Shown piece by piece: positions 2,294-31,511 of a stretch of DNA of 41,551 nt. Each line of letters begins with the position of its first letter. The first letter of the stretch is position 1. The notes below the pieces were generated by a model, which saw only the letters and a list, made by a program, of their open reading frames with translations, searched no databases and was not told the DNA's origin. The stretch covers positions 1 through 41,551 of the IMG/VR virus record IMGVR_UViG_3300019762_000014. One strand, written 5' to 3'. The stretch is from a virus. A program made the position numbers and the translations under genes.

Positions 2294-2562
2294 TTCTCCA
2301 GTTGTTTTTGATAATCAGCTTCACGCTGAACTAGTTCTTCTGCAATGATTTCTATTGCTGAATAATTAACATTAAGCGCCCTAGCTATTCTTTGCATTGT
2401 GTATCTGGTTGGGCTGCATTTACCGTATTTTATGCGACTTAAAGTTGATTCTGTTATACCTGTTAGCATTGATAGTCGATAAGTGCTAACAGCTCCGTTT
2501 TCGCAGTTTACTTGGCATTGCTCGATAGCTTTGCCAAGTGCGCAGAATTCTTTTTTAATCAT
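2290..2562 (-). CDS. XRE/Cro-type helix-turn-helix regulator
   Basis: 90 aa. Residues about 26-66 form a clear XRE helix-turn-helix (VSTYRLSMLTGITESTLSRI, then TMQRIARALNV), followed by a short charged tail. Its place near the start of an early leftward operon suits a Cro-like repressor. Candidate operators are the ACTTGC-N7-GCAAGT palindrome at 2856-2874 upstream of the operon and the palindrome at 4160-4175. No larger CI-type repressor with a LexA-like peptidase domain is visible in the window. Confidence 0.85.
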   Translation of the reverse strand: MIKKEFCALGKAIEQCQVNCENGAVSTYRLSMLTGITESTLSRIKYGKCSPTRYTMQRIARALNVNYSAIEIIAEELVQREADYQKQLEK

Positions 2563-2564
2563 AT

Positions 2565-2807
2565 TTATTTAGCCTTATAGTGCACAAATTTCTCAGCTCT
2601 TATTACTGCCATTTCCGTAAGCATATCGCAAGCCTTGCCTGTGATGCCGTTATTTGAAAGGTGAGCTTTAACGGTTTTAATTAAAGTTCCAGCAATAATC
2701 ATTGTAGATAATTTTTCAATTAAAGGGTTTAACATTAGCATTAGAGACGCTTTGTCGTCATTCTTAACTGCTAGATCAAACCTTGCTTTCAATTGTAATT
2801 TAGTCAT
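2565..2807 (-). CDS. Hypothetical 80-aa early protein
   Basis: 80 aa, preceded by an AAAGGAAAG Shine-Dalgarno. It is largely helical in composition (LKARFDLAVKNDDKASLML, then IIAGTLIKTVKAHL) with basic residues. It is the first gene of the XRE operon and follows the operator at 2856-2874, a position where λ-like phages often carry small regulators. I cannot assign a family. Confidence 0.65.
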   Translation of the reverse strand: MTKLQLKARFDLAVKNDDKASLMLMLNPLIEKLSTMIIAGTLIKTVKAHLSNNGITGKACDMLTEMAVIRAEKFVHYKAK

Positions 2808-2855
2808 AATGCTTTCCTTTAGGTTGTTTTGTTTCGATATAAAGATAATAGCATT

Positions 2856-2874
2856 ACTTGCGCAAAGGGCAAGT
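2856..2874. promoter_or_regulatory. ACTTGC-N7-GCAAGT operator over a -35 box
   Basis: Perfect half-sites ACTTGC and GCAAGT flank GCAAAGG. On the minus strand the segment overlaps TTGCGC, a possible -35, with TATATC about 18 bases further on. It is the best candidate operator for the XRE protein encoded just downstream. Confidence 0.55.
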
Positions 2875-2909
2875 AAAATTGTGTGGTTTAATTAAATTAG
2901 AATGTAAAG

Positions 2910-2925
2910 TGTGACAATGCTCACA
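2910..2925 (-). promoter_or_regulatory. CRP-like palindrome TGTGA-N6-TCACA
   Basis: Exact match to the CRP consensus halves with spacer CAATGC. The minus-strand -10 that should follow is weak (TAAACC-like). It sits between the terminator at 2924-2950 and the XRE operon. Confidence 0.5.
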
Positions 2926-2950
2926 AAAAAAGCCACTGTGATAGTGGCTT
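2924..2950 (-). terminator. Rho-independent terminator
   Basis: Stem AGCCACT (2931-2937) with AGTGGCT (2943-2949), followed on the minus strand by TTTTTT (2925-2930). It ends the operon that starts near 4090 and terminates at the 70-aa gene. Confidence 0.85.
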
Positions 2951-2954
2951 GTGC

Positions 2955-3167
2955 TTACTTCTGGTTTGATTCAAGATGCTTTATAGCATAACTGTATAGC
3001 TTAACTTTATCGTATAGCTTTATAGTCGCTAGCTCTGCCGCATCCTTTTCTTTGCGAACCTTGCTAAGCCTTTCGGCCATAACTTGCAGCTCAAACTCTA
3101 CCGCCTTTAGCTTTTTACGCTCAGTTACAAGTTGCTCTCTCAGTTCTGGCTTGCTTGCGCATTTCAT
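2955..3167 (-). CDS. Small coiled-coil protein
   Basis: 70 aa from ATG 3167, which overlaps the upstream stop (TGATG); a GTG at 3170 is an alternative start three bases earlier. An AAAGGAG Shine-Dalgarno precedes both. Nearly the whole protein is a charged heptad-like helix (LVTERKKLKAVEFELQVMAE, then LSKVRKEKDAAEL), so a coiled coil is likely. Function unknown. It is coupled to the preceding small helical gene and followed by a terminator. Confidence 0.65.
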   Translation of the reverse strand: MKCASKPELREQLVTERKKLKAVEFELQVMAERLSKVRKEKDAAELATIKLYDKVKLYSYAIKHLESNQK

Positions 3168-3373
3168 CACTCACACTCCTTTGCTTTATTTTCAAAGTGT
3201 AGCGCCTCTAATTCATGAATGCGCGCGTCGTCTTGATGGTGCTTAACAAGCTTCTTGGCTGAGTCGATAATCCCTTGCGCTTCTAAGACTCGCTCATGTG
3301 CTGCTGTAGCATGCAGTGTCGCTTCCATTGCTTTTTGTTGCCAATGTTGTTTGCTTGATAATGTAGTTGTCAT
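3167..3373 (-). CDS. Small helical hypothetical protein
   Basis: 68 aa with an AAGGAGCAATAAAATG start context. The composition is rich in Ala, His and Glu and predicts long helices (MEATLHATAAHERVLEAQ). It follows the Dam-type methylase and overlaps the next coiled-coil gene. I do not recognise it. Confidence 0.65.
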   Translation of the reverse strand: MTTTLSSKQHWQQKAMEATLHATAAHERVLEAQGIIDSAKKLVKHHQDDARIHELEALHFENKAKECE

Positions 3374-5018: not shown

Positions 5019-5600
5019 ATGATTGGCGACAACAATAGGCCGGAGCTTTTTCTGGCGCTATCAAAAATGCAAAGTGAGCTAACAGGGGCGTTCAAAGCAA
5101 CGAGTGGGCATGGCTACTATTACGCGGACTTGTCTAAGTGCATACAGACAGCTCAAGAGCCATTAGCAAATAATGGGCTTGCAGTTATTCAGTTGCTAAA
5201 TGAAACTGAAAAAGGCACTGAAATTGAAACAATTTTAACTCATGAGTCAGGTGGGTTTATATCATCTTCTTTCTTAATGGCTCAAGCTGTTTTGATGGGT
5301 GGTGGCGGTAAAAATCCAGCACAAGCAATGGGGGCGTCAATAACGTATATGCGCCGTTATGCTTACTCAGCTATCATAGGCTTGGCTCAAACAGACGATG
5401 ATGCTTGCAATGTAACAGCGAAGCCAAAAGTAACAACTATTGATGCAAATCAAATTGCAGCATTAAGAGCATTGTTCCACGATTGCATGACAGAGCAGCT
5501 ATTCTTGCAGCAATGGAATATAGCAAAAATGGAAGATATCCTAACCGCTAGTTATGACAGTGTGTCTAACTGGTTAATTCAATCAAAACAACAAGGGTAA
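5019..5600 (+). CDS. ERF-family single-strand annealing recombinase
   Basis: 193 aa. The core pattern [19 protein letters not shown] followed by [11 protein letters not shown] (105-115) and [11 protein letters not shown] matches the ERF superfamily (P22 Erf-like annealing proteins). These bind single-stranded DNA and anneal complementary strands during phage recombination and genome circularisation or concatemer formation. The start follows GGAGGCGGTT. It is directly followed by SSB, its expected partner. A C-terminal helical region (140-193) completes the protein. Confidence 0.9.
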
Positions 5601-5604
5601 TAAA

Positions 5605-6114
5605 ATGAGCATTAATAAGGTAACTTTAATCGGAAACTTAGGCAAAGATCCAGAAGTGCGATACATGCCTAATGGTGATGCGGTGGCAAACTTTAGCTTG
5701 GCAACTAGCGAAACATGGAAAGATAAGCAAACAGGCGAGCGAAAAGAGAAAACGGAATGGCACAAGGTCGTTGTGTTTGGAAAGCTTGCAGAGATTGCTG
5801 GTGAGTTCGTGCGCAAAGGCTCAAAGCTTTACATTGAAGGAAAGCTTCAGACTCGCAAGTGGCAAGGGCAAGATGGGCAGGACAAATATACAACAGAAGT
5901 TGTGCTTCAAGGCTTTGGCTGTGTACTTGAAATGCTAAATAAAGTTGAGGCTCAACATCAAGGCGCAATAGCTCAACAGCAACAACCACCAATGCAGCAA
6001 CAACCACAACAGCAAGCGGCTCCGCAGTATCAGCAGCCACAACAAAGCGCACTACAGCAACAAGCGCCGCAATACCAACAAGCGCCGCAACCGCAACAAT
6101 ATAACGGTGGCTAA
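5605..6114 (+). CDS. ssb: Single-stranded DNA-binding protein with Gln/Pro-rich tail
   Basis: 169 aa. Residues 1-110 form a typical SSB OB-fold ([20 protein letters not shown], then [38 protein letters not shown]). From about 120 the chain is a low-complexity Gln/Pro tail ending QYNGG. The acidic DDDIPF-type tip used by bacterial SSBs to recruit repair proteins is missing. It pairs functionally with ERF encoded five bases upstream. Confidence 0.95.
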
Positions 6115-23263: not shown

Positions 23264-23995
23264 ATGATTAACTTAATGATGGGCGATTGCCTTGAAAGAA
23301 TGAAAGAAATAGAAAGTGGTTCAGTTGATATGATATTGGCCGATCCCCCATACGGCACAACAGCGTGCAAGTGGGATTCAATTATTCCACTTGAACCAAT
23401 GTGGGAGCAGTTGAAGCGCATTATTAAGCCTAACGGGGCTATTGTGTTGTTTGGTGCTGAGCCGTTTTCTAGTTTACTTCGATGTAGCAACTTGAAGCAA
23501 TTTAAATATGATTGGGTATGGCAAAAAGACAAAGCAACAAATCATCTTAATGCTAAAAGAATGCCTATGCGAAGAAATGAGATTGTAAGTGTGTTTTACA
23601 AAAAACAATGCTTATATAAACCGCAACTACAGAAGAAAGATCCTAAAAATATAAGGCCACCAACAACAAAAAGGAAACAAGCTGATAACTACGGTTCGAT
23701 GACTGCAGTGTCAGTAAGAGAGATACCAGTTGATATGAGCTACCCAAACGAAACACTGAAGTTTCGTGGGTGCTTTGGTGATAAAGGAAAGTCATTGCAC
23801 CCAACCCAAAAGCCAGTCGCTTTAATGGAGTACCTAATTAAAACTTACACCAATGAAGGTGAAACGGTTTTAGATTTCACAATGGGAAGTGGTACAACTG
23901 GCGTAGCAGCAAAAAACCTAAACCGTAAATTCATCGGTATTGAAATGGATGAAGCATATTTTAATATTGCAAAAGAGCGCATTGAAAATAGTTAA
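23264..23995 (+). CDS. DNA (N4-cytosine or N6-adenine) methyltransferase, β-class order
   Basis: 243 aa. Catalytic motif DPPY at 27-30 comes before the AdoMet-binding motif DFTMGSGTTG (204-213), giving the β-class order. KSLHPTQKPVALMEYLI between them is typical of this family. It methylates DNA and likely protects the phage from restriction, or is half of a solitary modification moron. It is on the plus strand between head genes, with its own CRP-like promoter and a terminator after it. Confidence 0.92.
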   Translation: MINLMMGDCLERMKEIESGSVDMILADPPYGTTACKWDSIIPLEPMWEQLKRIIKPNGAIVLFGAEPFSSLLRCSNLKQFKYDWVWQKDKATNHLNAKRMPMRRNEIVSVFYKKQCLYKPQLQKKDPKNIRPPTTKRKQADNYGSMTAVSVREIPVDMSYPNETLKFRGCFGDKGKSLHPTQKPVALMEYLIKTYTNEGETVLDFTMGSGTTGVAAKNLNRKFIGIEMDEAYFNIAKERIENS

Positions 23996-24000
23996 AACAA

Positions 24001-24024
24001 AAAGCCCCAATCAAGGGGCTTTTT
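24001..24024. terminator. Bidirectional Rho-independent terminator
   Basis: AAAGCCCC (24001-24008), AATCAA, GGGGCTTT (24015-24022). T-runs follow on the plus strand and, as complement, on the minus strand. It ends the plus-strand methyltransferase and the converging minus-strand gene (stop at 24026). Confidence 0.85.
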
Positions 24025-24025
24025 G

Positions 24026-24607
24026 TTATGGCTCTAATAGCTCCCAAAAGAAACTTAAGCCTGCCACTGTATTCCCACCATTAACAAGCTCACTTGGTGG
24101 GGCTAACGTCAGAGTGCTTGATTCACTATTAAAGAACGCCCACCTGATAGATTGACCTGGCGCGAAAGAGTCTATTGCTGATGCTTTTGTTTGGCTCGAT
24201 GCGGATGTGTTTGCAATCGTGCTTGTTCTTAGTGAAACTGCCGCCTCTGTAAATGTAAGCCCGTCATCTTCTGAAATTTCAGTCCAAAGCTTTATATTTG
24301 CAGCGCCACCAGTTCCATTGTCAAGTTGATATGAAACAGATCCGGCCATGTTCACTGTTTTGGTTGAGTTATTTTTTACCCACTGAGCACCATCAACAGC
24401 ATTGTAAAATTCAAACTCGGGGCTTGATGTTGCGACCTTTGTTAGCTCAATTGCACCTCCAAATCTGGTGGGGTTATTTCTATCATTGCTAACGGGTATT
24501 GTATCAGCGCAAAACGCCCCAAAATGCAACTTAGGAAGTGCTGCTAGCTTTTCTTGATCTGCCGCTGATATCGCTCCGCAACATGAATCACCTTCGTAAA
24601 TTGGCAT
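24026..24607 (-). CDS. Putative virion surface (jelly-roll-like) protein
   Basis: 193 aa. After a Cys-containing N-terminus (MPIYEGDSCCGAISAADQEK) the rest is β-rich and Thr/Ser-rich (VNMAGSVSYQLDNGTGGAAN, then KLWTEISEDDGLTFTEAAVS). This looks like a surface decoration or head-fibre domain. It lies between the gpF-like gene and the protease/scaffold. Family not recognised. Confidence 0.6.
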   Translation of the reverse strand: MPIYEGDSCCGAISAADQEKLAALPKLHFGAFCADTIPVSNDRNNPTRFGGAIELTKVATSSPEFEFYNAVDGAQWVKNNSTKTVNMAGSVSYQLDNGTGGAANIKLWTEISEDDGLTFTEAAVSLRTSTIANTSASSQTKASAIDSFAPGQSIRWAFFNSESSTLTLAPPSELVNGGNTVAGLSFFWELLEP

Positions 24608-24882
24608 TATAAAACCCCTCCGACTGGCGTAACATCTAGCTCTGAATCATCTACGCCATACGCATAAATAAAGTCGGTAGCCTCAATATTACAATATCGT
24701 TTACTATCACCATTATTAACCATACTAGCAGCCCACGGCAACTCAGAAGGCTCTAGCGTTGGCAATGTCGCCTGCTCGGTTAACACTACGCCACCAGAAC
24801 GCAAGACAATAGCACCATCTTTGCTTGTCGTTGTTATTTGTGTCCACTCACCCTTTGGACACGCTACAGCTTGTGTACTCAT
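24607..24882 (-). CDS. Hypothetical 91-aa head-region protein
   Basis: 91 aa, start overlapping the gpF-like stop by four bases (ATGA-type). β-rich: MSTQAVACPKGEWTQITTTS, then GAIVLRSGGVVLTEQATLPT. Probably a small virion surface or capsid accessory protein, together with the 193-aa gene it overlaps. No motif assigned. Confidence 0.6.
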   Translation of the reverse strand: MSTQAVACPKGEWTQITTTSKDGAIVLRSGGVVLTEQATLPTLEPSELPWAASMVNNGDSKRYCNIEATDFIYAYGVDDSELDVTPVGGVL

Positions 24883-26654
24883 TCGTTATTCTCCTCATCA
24901 TCTACAATCATTCGATACCCGCACCGACAGTTTGACACTGCGGATGTATTTACTGTATAGTCGTTAGAAATTGTCTCGAGGTTATAAACATGCCCAGAAA
25001 AATCCCTAACGAAATTATTATTAACGCGGCACAACCTGTATTGGATGGTATTATCACCTCCAAAGCTGCCGCCGCCACAATCCCCATGCACCCATCCTCT
25101 TTTAGCAAACGAGCCAAGGAGCTTGGTATTACCTTCCCCAAAACCAAGCCTTCCAGACTTGAGAGAGTCAATCTTCCTGTTGATAATATCACAACCATGT
25201 ACCAAAACGGACAAAGCGAAAACAGTATCGCTAAACACTTCGGAGTTGGTAGAGCTGCTATAAGAAATAGACTCCTTAACTCCGGGATCAAACCAAGAAC
25301 CCAAAGTGAAGCAGAAAAGCTCAAGTGGAGTCAAATGAGCGATGAATCTAGAGTGAAACAGGTCAAGGCAGCTCACAAGGCGTCCAAAGGAAAACCCAAA
25401 AGCGTTGAATCCAGAAAGGCCATCGCCTCTGCACGTGAAAAAATCAAGTATGACTGCCTGTTCGGAGTTGGAGAGGTTGAGTTTAAAGAACTTCTCTCCG
25501 ACAGAGGAATTAACTTCATCGCTCAAAAGGCTATCCATACTTACAATGTTGATTTCGCCATCGGAAATGTCGCCGTGGAACTCACCAGCGACAGAGGGCG
25601 ATACAGCATGTTCAACCCCAAGGAGATCAAGAGAGCAAAAGATCTGTTTAAATGTGGGTACCGGGTCATAGCCGTACAGTTCGACGAGATCGAAAGTTTG
25701 ATCAATAGTTTTGATGATATAGTCATTGCTATCAATGAGGCTAGCAGCCTTGAACCCGTTAGTGGTGAGTATTGGGTGATTAGCTGTAGACGTAAGGACT
25801 GCGCCGTCATCCGTGACGATATCGGACAATTCACCAGTGTACCTTCTACTGTAGAATTTACGAATAAAAGAAGTGTGATTCACTTTTGAGTCTTCTGTAA
25901 AGCACTGATAGTCAGTACCGGGCAATAAAGTCTTACCGTCCAAGCTAGAGTATAACCCCTCGCTCAAATCAAACACTTTGCCATCTCTTTGCGCGTGAGA
26001 TGGCCTTGTTCTTTCGTCGCTTGATGATATCCAGATAGCCTTGGTTACCCCTAGTTTTTGCGCTCGCGTCTTGTTCATTATCGAGTTGAAGTTGGCGACC
26101 TGATTTCTAGCTGTGAATTTAGCGTGGTCGCGGCGCTTCTCTTTCATTCTGTCAAACTGAGTTAATATGCTCTCTATCGTATCGCCTTGAGTCATTGAGC
26201 GCAGAGTGTTAGCGGTATACATCTCCAAAGTTTCGTCGCGTAGCTTTTGCGCCCATTGAGTTGTCTCTAGCACTAAAGCGTTAAAGTCGTACTTTGTGCC
26301 GTCTTTCTTTAGCAGTGAAGTTGGGTCAATTCCAATGTCTTTAGCCACACGCTCATAGAATATCTTTTTAGCTCGATTATCGTTGCGCGTGAACACTTGT
26401 GTTACCAAGTCTTTTATGCGCTTATTGCTAAATCTAGCTACCAGAGACTTACTAGCGGCCTTTGCAAGCTTGGTTAGTATTGCGGCATAGTTACCTACCT
26501 GCGCGTCTGTAAACTTATCTATAGTGCCTTTGTTTAGCTCTAGGATAACCTGATTCTTATACATGCGCGACATTAAATCAACCATGCTTAACATAGCTGA
26601 TTCTAGCTGCTTCTCTTCGCTCTTTAGCGGCTCTGGTGCTTTAAACTCAGACAT
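24879..26654 (-). CDS. Mu gpF/SPP1 gp7-like head morphogenesis protein interrupted by an intein
   Basis: 591 codons. Residues 1-250 and 576-591 are extein, together 266 aa. The N-extein matches the Mu F/SPP1 gp7 minor head family (AKFTARNQVANFNSIMNKTR, then WISSSDERTRPSHAQRDGKV). That family ends in a conserved CRC motif. Here the motif is split: LPGTDYQ stops at residue 250 and CRCGYRMIV resumes at 576. The 325-residue insert has intein splicing blocks. After splicing, GTDYQ joins CRCGYR, restoring the motif. The gene follows the portal gene with an eight-base overlap. Confidence 0.95.
   Translation of the reverse strand: MSEFKAPEPLKSEEKQLESAMLSMVDLMSRMYKNQVILELNKGTIDKFTDAQVGNYAAILTKLAKAASKSLVARFSNKRIKDLVTQVFTRNDNRAKKIFYERVAKDIGIDPTSLLKKDGTKYDFNALVLETTQWAQKLRDETLEMYTANTLRSMTQGDTIESILTQFDRMKEKRRDHAKFTARNQVANFNSIMNKTRAQKLGVTKAIWISSSDERTRPSHAQRDGKVFDLSEGLYSSLDGKTLLPGTDYQCFTEDSKVNHTSFIRKFYSRRYTGELSDIVTDDGAVLTSTANHPILTTNGFKAASLIDSNDYIIKTIDQTFDLVELYGYDPVPTFKQIFCSLDLLGVEHAVSPSVAGEFHGDISDGEINIVSMDSLLSDEVNSSVGEKFFKLNLSNSEQAVILDFFTCRGDGLSGFNAFGFSFGRLVSCLDLFHSRFIAHLTPLELFCFTLGSWFDPGVKESISYSSSTNSEVFSDTVFALSVLVHGCDIINRKIDSLKSGRLGFGEGNTKLLGSFAKRGWVHGDCGGGSFGGDNTIQYRLCRVNNNFVRDFSGHVYNLETISNDYTVNTSAVSNCRCGYRMIVDDEENNE
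24930..25904 (-). other. Intein in the gpF-like protein (residues 251-575)
   Basis: Block A begins with Cys1 (CFTEDSKV). Block B contains the TxxH motif (LTSTANHPIL, T290/H293). Block F is HVYNLETISNDYTVN, and block G is AVSN followed by Cys576, the C-extein nucleophile. The penultimate residue is Ser574 instead of the usual His; Asn575 is present. The 225 or so residues between the blocks show no LAGLIDADG or HNH motif on the sense strand, because that DNA encodes an antisense endonuclease. Splicing competence is inferred from the conserved blocks. Confidence 0.9.
24990..25889 (+). CDS. Putative homing endonuclease encoded antisense to the intein
   Basis: 299 aa. GAGGT at 24978-24982 lies seven bases before ATG 24990. 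Two helix-turn-helix regions are seen (about 22-46, ITSKAAAATIPMHPSSF; and 75-97, ENSIAKHFGVGRAAIRN), then a basic NUMOD-like linker (KPRTQSEAEKLKWSQ). The nuclease core spans about 150-235: GEVEF (E162/E164), TYNVDFAIGNVAVEL (D188, E197) and AKDLFKCGYRVIAV. This is the Vsr/DUF559 (EDxHD) endonuclease pattern. It likely cuts intein-less gpF genes at the insertion site. The whole ORF lies inside the intein. Confidence 0.88.
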   Translation: MPRKIPNEIIINAAQPVLDGIITSKAAAATIPMHPSSFSKRAKELGITFPKTKPSRLERVNLPVDNITTMYQNGQSENSIAKHFGVGRAAIRNRLLNSGIKPRTQSEAEKLKWSQMSDESRVKQVKAAHKASKGKPKSVESRKAIASAREKIKYDCLFGVGEVEFKELLSDRGINFIAQKAIHTYNVDFAIGNVAVELTSDRGRYSMFNPKEIKRAKDLFKCGYRVIAVQFDEIESLINSFDDIVIAINEASSLEPVSGEYWVISCRRKDCAVIRDDIGQFTSVPSTVEFTNKRSVIHF

Positions 26655-30860: not shown

Positions 30861-31511
30861 TTATAACTCTTCTGCTTGCTTTAATAGCTCGTCAGCCTTT
30901 TCTATTAACATCTTTTTCTTTTCTTGTATGTCACTATCAATGCGAACATCTATTCCGCTGATAGCAAGGAACTTTTCAGCGTCAAAGTTTGGAATGTTAA
31001 ATATCTTTTCCCGATCTTCTTTTGTCGCTTTGCTGTACGACTCTTTAAACGCTTCTTTGTAGTCTTTTTTCTTTAAATACCCACCAATGTTCCCAAAGGT
31101 TTCGTTTTCGTCTTTTTCTTTTTGTGTCATTTCTGATTCACATACGAACTCGGCTAAAGCGAAATATATAAAATCAGGCTTATCGCAACTATCCCAGTCT
31201 GATTTATTTGCTGGTGAGTCAAAAATATTTATTTGATATGGTGTTTCTTGATTAAAGTAACCAGCGTTCCAGTCGCCAGTGTTCCAGTCGCCAGTGTTGC
31301 CGTTACCAGTGTTGCGGTAACCAGCGTTCCAGTCGCCAGTGTTGCCGTTACCAGTGTTGCGGTAACCAGCGTTCCAGTCGCCAGTGTTCCAGTCGCCAGT
31401 GTTGCCGTTACCAGCGTTCCAGTCGCCAGTGTTGCCGTTACCAGTGTTGCCGTTACCAGCGTTCCAGTCGCCAGTGTTGCCGTTACCAGTGTTGAGGTTT
31501 TTATCGGTCAT
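30861..31511 (-). CDS. Pentapeptide-repeat (NxGxx type) protein
   Basis: 216 aa. Residues 7-86 are sixteen consecutive five-residue units of the types [15 protein letters not shown] and NAGYR. The period predicts a right-handed β-helix. Residues about 87-216 form a separate helical domain ([20 protein letters not shown], then [20 protein letters not shown]), seen with such repeats in other phage proteins. Its target is unknown. A CRP-like promoter lies upstream at 31567-31608. Confidence 0.8.
31254..31493 (-). repeat. 15-bp tandem repeats encoding the pentapeptide array
   Basis: Sixteen in-frame 15-bp units with very similar sequence (complement of GTTCCAGTCGCCAGT-like blocks). Longer 30- to 60-bp blocks recur, so the array could expand or contract by slippage or annealing without breaking the frame. 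Confidence 0.9.

Follow-up and report, generated by a model that had tools for sequence, protein, structure and literature searches.

A phage head-protein intein that probably shares its codons with an antisense homing endonuclease gene

A minor head protein gene in the analysed viral DNA, a window of 41,551 nucleotides (IMG/VR record IMGVR_UViG_3300019762_000014), carries an insertion that is very probably a dual-coding intein, with a homing endonuclease encoded on the antisense strand of the same DNA. The first-pass annotation, made from the sequence alone, had proposed that a splicing protein and a homing enzyme share DNA in this manner, and this is supported by homology, by fold and by constraint on both reading frames, the activities of the two proteins being inferred. 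We observed the two genes, selection acting on both of them, expression signals embedded in the splicing blocks, and natural alleles with and without the intein.

The host gene (24879-26654, minus strand) encodes a 591-residue precursor of a gpF/MuF-like minor head protein (Phage_Mu_F/gp7 type), with matches to Pfam Phage_Mu_F (2.9e-12), TIGR01641 (5.4e-11) and PHROG 15127 (1.8e-94). Its N-extein (residues 1-250; 25905-26654, minus) shares 70% amino acid identity with the gpF of an intein-less Vibrio phage. The C-extein (24882-24929, minus) starts at Cys576 with CRCGYR, and the intein-less phage VBM1 reads PGTDYQ/CRCGYRM across the junction (slash). Between the exteins lies an in-frame, protein-coding insertion of 325 residues with Hint blocks (24930-25904, minus), which begins with Cys1 (Cys251 of the precursor), has its TxxH motif at T290/H293 and ends in Ser-Asn (Asn575) before Cys+1 (Cys576), exactly as first mapped. 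Elsewhere in the window, the minus-strand structural block includes a plus-strand N6/N4 DNA methylase gene (23264-23995; Pfam 6e-36) adjoined by a hairpin and T-run at ~24000-24026, and a pentapeptide-repeat protein of unknown role is encoded at 30861-31511 (minus; Pfam 1e-18).

The N-terminal Hint splicing part of the intein (25695-25904, minus) includes block A (25866-25904) and block B (TANHPILT, 25764-25787; T40-A-N-H43 in the window intein), and the C-terminal Hint part (24930-25052, minus) includes block F (GHVYNLET, 24972-24995) and block G (AVSN, 24930-24941). The window gpF protein matches Pfam Intein_splicing at E=6e-4, a family matched by 28 of the 30 intein family members, and a profile built from 30 related inteins matches PI-PkoII (6e-10) as well as the KlbA, RadA and RecA inteins, which bears out the proposed identity of the splicing domain. 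These profile matches are confined to the Hint parts (17-76 and 290-321), with PI-PkoII and KlbA matched in both. Cys1, TxxH (alignment positions T46 and H49), the C-terminal Asn and Cys+1 are invariant in 30 sequences. The penultimate residue is His in other members and Ser324 in the window intein, which leaves the penultimate-His criterion unmet here. Active inteins without a penultimate His exist, however, and for this reason it was not counted as a strict requirement. With that exception the insertion meets, at the level of sequence, the criteria for a class 1 Hint intein, whose splicing can only be inferred.

An AlphaFold2 model of the intein, a check suggested with the annotation, is confident only in the two Hint parts (pLDDT mostly 70-90 in the N-terminal and 75-92 in the C-terminal part), and Foldseek matched it to the RecA and DnaB mini-inteins with probability near 1 but E-values of 0.007 or above. 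The middle of the sense intein (25053-25694, minus; ~210 residues) has pLDDT values mostly below 50 and is predicted to be an unfolded linker, which is a weak negative because the alignments used for modelling were shallow (16 sequences). Family and profile searches placed this middle in no endonuclease family, and the profile search gave no sense-frame homology for it, in agreement with the earlier statement that no in-frame endonuclease lies between the splicing blocks.

The opposite strand encodes a 299-residue protein (24990-25889, plus; coordinates as originally given) over 92% of the intein (900 of 975 bases), which we assign as an EDxHD-type homing endonuclease. As a single sequence it matched DUF559 (E=3e-4) and I-Bth0305I (3r3p, E=0.01), and a profile of 31 antisense proteins matched I-Bth0305I at 4.8e-7, the endonuclease-like protein 3hrl at 4e-4, and several helix-turn-helix (HTH) proteins. 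The recommended HMM search of both translations returned intein splicing families on one strand and nuclease families on the other. The AlphaFold2 model of the whole antisense protein (mean pLDDT 88) comprises two HTH units, a helical linker, a Vsr-like nuclease and a C-terminal hairpin, and in a Foldseek search with this model 3r3p was the sole PDB match at E <= 0.001 (E 7.9e-4, probability 1.0). A missing nuclease fold would have refuted the proposal, and the predicted structure provides one.

Both HTH regions that had been noted in the sequence are present. The first (residues 7-44; 25008-25121, plus) is modelled with helices at 7-18, 24-28 and 35-44 and has a profile match to 2lvs, and for the second (residues 64-97; 25179-25280, plus) most members match HTH_7 as well as further HTH families. 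The linker (residues 105-152; 25302-25445, plus), which contains the most conserved stretch, SEAEKLKWSQM, had been called NUMOD-like; it is helical, but family searches gave no match to a NUMOD family. The Vsr-like core (25461-25724, plus), assigned to 3r3p by profile and fold, contains the conserved acidic residues E162 (25473-25475), D188 (25551-25553) and E197 (25578-25580). Y185, D188 and E197 are invariant in 31 antisense sequences, and E162 is found in at least 90% of them. The description of this core as Vsr/DUF559-like EDxHD stands on these residues and on the DUF559 and 3r3p matches, but is incomplete in that the alignment of 31 sequences shows no evident final motif His in the window clade. 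Some members have a His close to the expected place (HPHTH, THP, HWHW), and the window clade has RGRY.

The C-terminal beta hairpin of the endonuclease (residues 260-298; 25767-25883, plus; pLDDT about 90) lies opposite the Hint-N blocks, and its YWVI is the mirror of sense NHPI. Both ends of the endonuclease gene run under splicing blocks, and its second HTH and nuclease core are encoded opposite the unfolded middle of the intein. We also observed that the strong sense motif FHGDxSDxEI(D/N)IV, at residues 109-121 of the window intein, exactly mirrors the nuclease motif YNxDFAIGNVAVE; elsewhere it may have been mistaken for an intein motif.

A tblastn search with the antisense protein returned 127 phage records, with the match mostly under a MuF, head morphogenesis or minor capsid gene. 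They include phages of Vibrio, Aggregatibacter (Aaphi23, S1249), Klebsiella, Edwardsiella (MSW-3), Salmonella (Jerseyvirus), E. coli (Snoke), Pantoea, Cronobacter, Pseudomonas, Idiomarinaceae and Gordonia, and a Helicobacter prophage, to which further searches added Mycobacterium phage Sejanus and Rhodococcus phage REQ3. Phage records, viral contigs and genome contigs together gave 69 loci forming 58 clusters at 90% DNA identity. The antisense arrangement was present in 57 of these 58 distinct loci, in phages of Proteobacteria, Campylobacterota and Actinobacteria; at the one exception the head gene has no intein and the endonuclease gene stands alone next to it. Most loci share one insertion site, with N or Q before the first C of the intein and S/H-N at its end followed by C-R-C. 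In a first locus set, one register and a single open sense frame were found in 34 of 35 loci, and in a second set all intein-borne loci had this register and an open sense frame; the host gene and the intein are unsplit, forming a continuous sense frame in the intein-borne loci. Every intein-borne homologue that we examined keeps the endonuclease frame open, so the frequent stops that would have spoken against it did not appear, and the remaining antisense frames are interrupted in every cluster except one.

Scanning with one sense protein alone recovered no relatives, its patterns being too specific. An alignment-based scan for the sense intein matched at least 527 viral contigs, and the best 80 of these matches, the top-scoring part, had the antisense endonuclease in every case (80/80). 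In most records examined, the region is labelled only as head protein or hypothetical protein. In the record of Salmonella phage vB_StyS-sam a plus-strand hypothetical protein is annotated in the endonuclease region (locus 1730-2131), and the endonuclease itself went unrecognised.

The expression signals of the endonuclease gene lie within the splicing blocks. Its ATG (24990-24992, plus) is complementary to CAT, the codon for the block-F His, which is used in 27 of 27 loci, compared with 45% in exteins (P 3e-10). Seven bases upstream is the Shine-Dalgarno sequence GAGGT reported in the first reading (24978-24982, plus), antisense to block-F Asn-Leu; across loci it takes the form GGAGGTT or GAGGTT, and the Leu codon is CTC in 22 of 28 loci versus 11% in exteins (P 4e-16). 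In most loci the ATG lies 60 bases from the intein end. A putative promoter for the endonuclease, TTGACA-N18-TATAGT (24932-24961, plus; 11/12 consensus), runs over block G and ends 28 bases before the ATG. Its position and 18-nt spacer are kept in most near-clade loci, and some loci beyond the near clade have TATAAT 45 bases before the ATG. These sites are consensus matches, not mapped promoters, from which promoter activity is inferred.

A natural control is provided by Acinetobacter Obolenskvirus phages. In IME285 and BUCT629, a free-standing endonuclease gene lies in convergent orientation just after a complete, intein-free head gene (reading MCKCRAKL), its product being 36% identical over 95%, and phage P1068 of the same group also has the endonuclease gene. 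The frames opposite this gene, where there is no sense gene to preserve, are full of stops. The possibility that IME285 contains a broken intein was rejected, as the head gene beside the free-standing enzyme gene is intein-free. It is possible that the free-standing gene represents the ancestor of the antisense intein enzyme or an escaped form of it.

Inside the intein the two genes are read codon on codon, each triplet forming one codon in each gene, and because of this exact register neither gene can use codons that would create a stop in the other. From the codon usage of neighbouring genes, the 29 Leu and 35 Ser intein codons of the window overlap would be expected to include 25.8 of the types that create antisense stops (TTA, CTA, TCA), and none was found (P about 1e-15). 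In the reciprocal direction, 15.8 stops were expected and again none was found. With the loci pooled, none of the 1479 Leu/Ser codons in the overlap is of these types, versus 307 of 1252 (25%) in the exteins and 25 of 87 in the final 19 codons of the intein, which the endonuclease gene does not cover.

Selection was analysed using a 58-state triplet model with two omegas on ten disjoint pairs, which were treated as independent (pairs, not a tree). As the frames are in register, the model needs no reading-frame approximation in the overlap. Fourfold-site divergence was 0.16-0.38 in the intein versus 0.68 in the extein, but a younger intein can confound this raw comparison, and for this reason the within-region model was used. 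Over the whole overlap, omega was 0.40 for the sense frame (2dlnL 220 against omega = 1) and 0.25 for the antisense frame (2dlnL 515), which disposes of neutral evolution of the antisense frame, another outcome that would have refuted the annotation. The corresponding sense and antisense values were 0.29 and 0.35 in the Hint-N region, 0.43 and 0.215 in the linker region, and 0.02 and 0.84 in the extein control. Both frames are under purifying selection in every region of the overlap. Of the two frames, the antisense one is the better conserved in the linker, where the sense frame is nevertheless constrained beyond mere openness, for reasons that are unresolved.

Codon-on-codon antisense frames are the commonest spurious long open reading frames, and antisense similarity among homologues can mirror the similarity of their sense frames, which raises the question of whether the endonuclease frame is an untranslated by-product of intein-gene codon usage. 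We find this hardly credible given the absence from the overlap of stop-type codons, which make up a quarter of extein Leu/Ser codons, the low antisense omega, the existence of the Acinetobacter relative without any sense frame, the match to a solved endonuclease, and the conservation of both ribosome-binding site and start. Mirrored homology was rejected as a source of the similarity on the grounds of the stronger antisense conservation in the linker, the same free-standing relative and the homology to the solved enzyme.

The endonuclease could also be genuine while splicing has been lost, leaving the gpF frame only passively open. The penultimate Ser and the low-confidence middle of the intein model are compatible with such a loss, but the invariance of Cys1, TxxH, Asn and Cys+1, the sense omega over Hint-N and the good confidence of the modelled splicing parts all argue against it, as does the heavy load that an unspliced head protein would impose. 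Loss of splicing is in our judgement very unlikely, and an intein under selection together with its antisense gene remains the preferred reading.

Evidence of mobility comes from closely related phages. Vibrio phages VBM1 and PvVp04_M share 92% DNA identity over the region, and a 981-bp intein is present only in PvVp04_M, at the exact Gln/Cys junction that is empty in VBM1. The ~110 bases following the intein site (VBM1 2925-3034) are 80% identical between these phages, compared with 92-96% in the flanks, and may be a footprint of recombination or co-conversion. The exteins of Snoke and fEg-Eco06 are nearly identical, but their inteins are very different and occupy two different gene sites, each with an antisense endonuclease. 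In fEg-Eco06 (locus 2411-3304) and Sejanus the intein occupies a second, upstream MuF site, and the usual N/CRC site is empty. Trees of the endonucleases and of the exteins recover the same close groups, with deeper branches too weakly resolved to prove transfer.

With its two HTH regions, a last catalytic His that is not evident and a promoter-like site directed antisense to a structural gene, the antisense protein might instead be a DNA-binding regulator or domesticated nuclease, or antisense transcription might itself regulate the late head gene. The conserved E162/D188/E197 core with its I-Bth0305I fold, the sporadic presence and absence, the use of two insertion sites, and the seat within an intein, which is classical for homing enzymes, make these options unlikely, and a homing endonuclease is the favoured assignment.

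For such an element, the following course of events is proposed; splicing, cleavage, homing, promoter activity and timing are all inferred. After translation of the sense strand within gpF, the N- and C-terminal Hint parts would meet and the intein would be spliced out, retaining a long and probably unfolded linker that would need mainly to stay open. From the antisense strand, which has a promoter-like site, a ribosome site and a start codon of its own in blocks F/G, a separate HTH-HTH-linker-nuclease protein would be produced. This endonuclease would cut intein-less gpF alleles near the Gln250/Cys251 codons, and repair templated by an intein-bearing copy would transfer the intein and the endonuclease gene as a unit. 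A separate promoter would free the enzyme from late head-gene timing. The window also encodes a recombination pair, an ERF-type recombinase (5019-5600, plus) and an SSB (5605-6114, plus), which could take part in the repair of endonuclease breaks.

In textbook mobile inteins the endonuclease is part of the same polypeptide. Like the element described here, bifunctional LAGLIDADG/HNH inteins have an endonuclease between N- and C-terminal Hint blocks and occur sporadically at one site of a conserved gene. Their enzyme is in frame within the spliced-out polypeptide, whereas here it is a separate opposite-strand gene with its own start signals that also overlaps the splicing blocks. Dassa et al. 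in 2009 reportedly described 'fractured genes', in which a free-standing Vsr-like endonuclease gene lies between the halves of a split intein. These resemble the present case in having an intein-associated, separately translated EDxHD/Vsr-like enzyme, but there the host gene and the intein are split; here they are unsplit in one sense frame, with the enzyme gene antisense. I-Bth0305I (3r3p), which shares the nuclease core by profile and fold and likewise combines DNA-binding modules with a nuclease, originates from a group I intron (it is named 'Mobile intron protein' in the PDB). The protein described here differs from it in its extra predicted C-terminal hairpin and in that the last motif His is not evident.

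Antisense homing endonuclease genes are known from nuclear group I introns of Didymium, Dir.S956-2 and Dsq.L2066 (PMC9548176), in which the endonuclease gene likewise lies opposite both splicing element and host gene. These are RNA introns in rDNA with a His-Cys enzyme in a peripheral ribozyme loop, and there is no dual coding, since the sense strand is not protein-coding (PMC9548176). In the available portions of three reports (PMC6776784, PMC8425127, PMC11162368), an intein is already annotated in the capsid morphogenesis genes of Snoke, LSPA1 and other Guernseyvirinae, and K1ind2 is given as lacking one. These inteins belong to the same family and the same kind of gene as that of the window. 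As far as those portions go, no antisense endonuclease is reported for them; we found one at both the Snoke and the LSPA1 loci. Nor was any report of an antisense endonuclease in an intein found in the open-licence literature, where the components are known and this architecture was not found described.

We consider it likely that these loci represent a large, old and unrecognised class of mobile inteins in tailed phages, dual-coding over almost all of their length, with a splicing element in sense, a self-promoted endonuclease in antisense, and an enzyme made early relative to its late host gene. On the practical side, annotators overlook the antisense gene, and the sense motif FHGD...IDIV is explained as a mirror of the nuclease motif. 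In these elements intein and endonuclease are separated by strand and not by gene splitting, and two proteins are tied to one set of codons across ~300 positions, of which hundreds of natural variants can be studied. They offer a clean system for examining how two unrelated folds share one DNA and how selection divides codon positions between strands, and for asking how a selfish gene uncouples its expression from that of an essential host gene.
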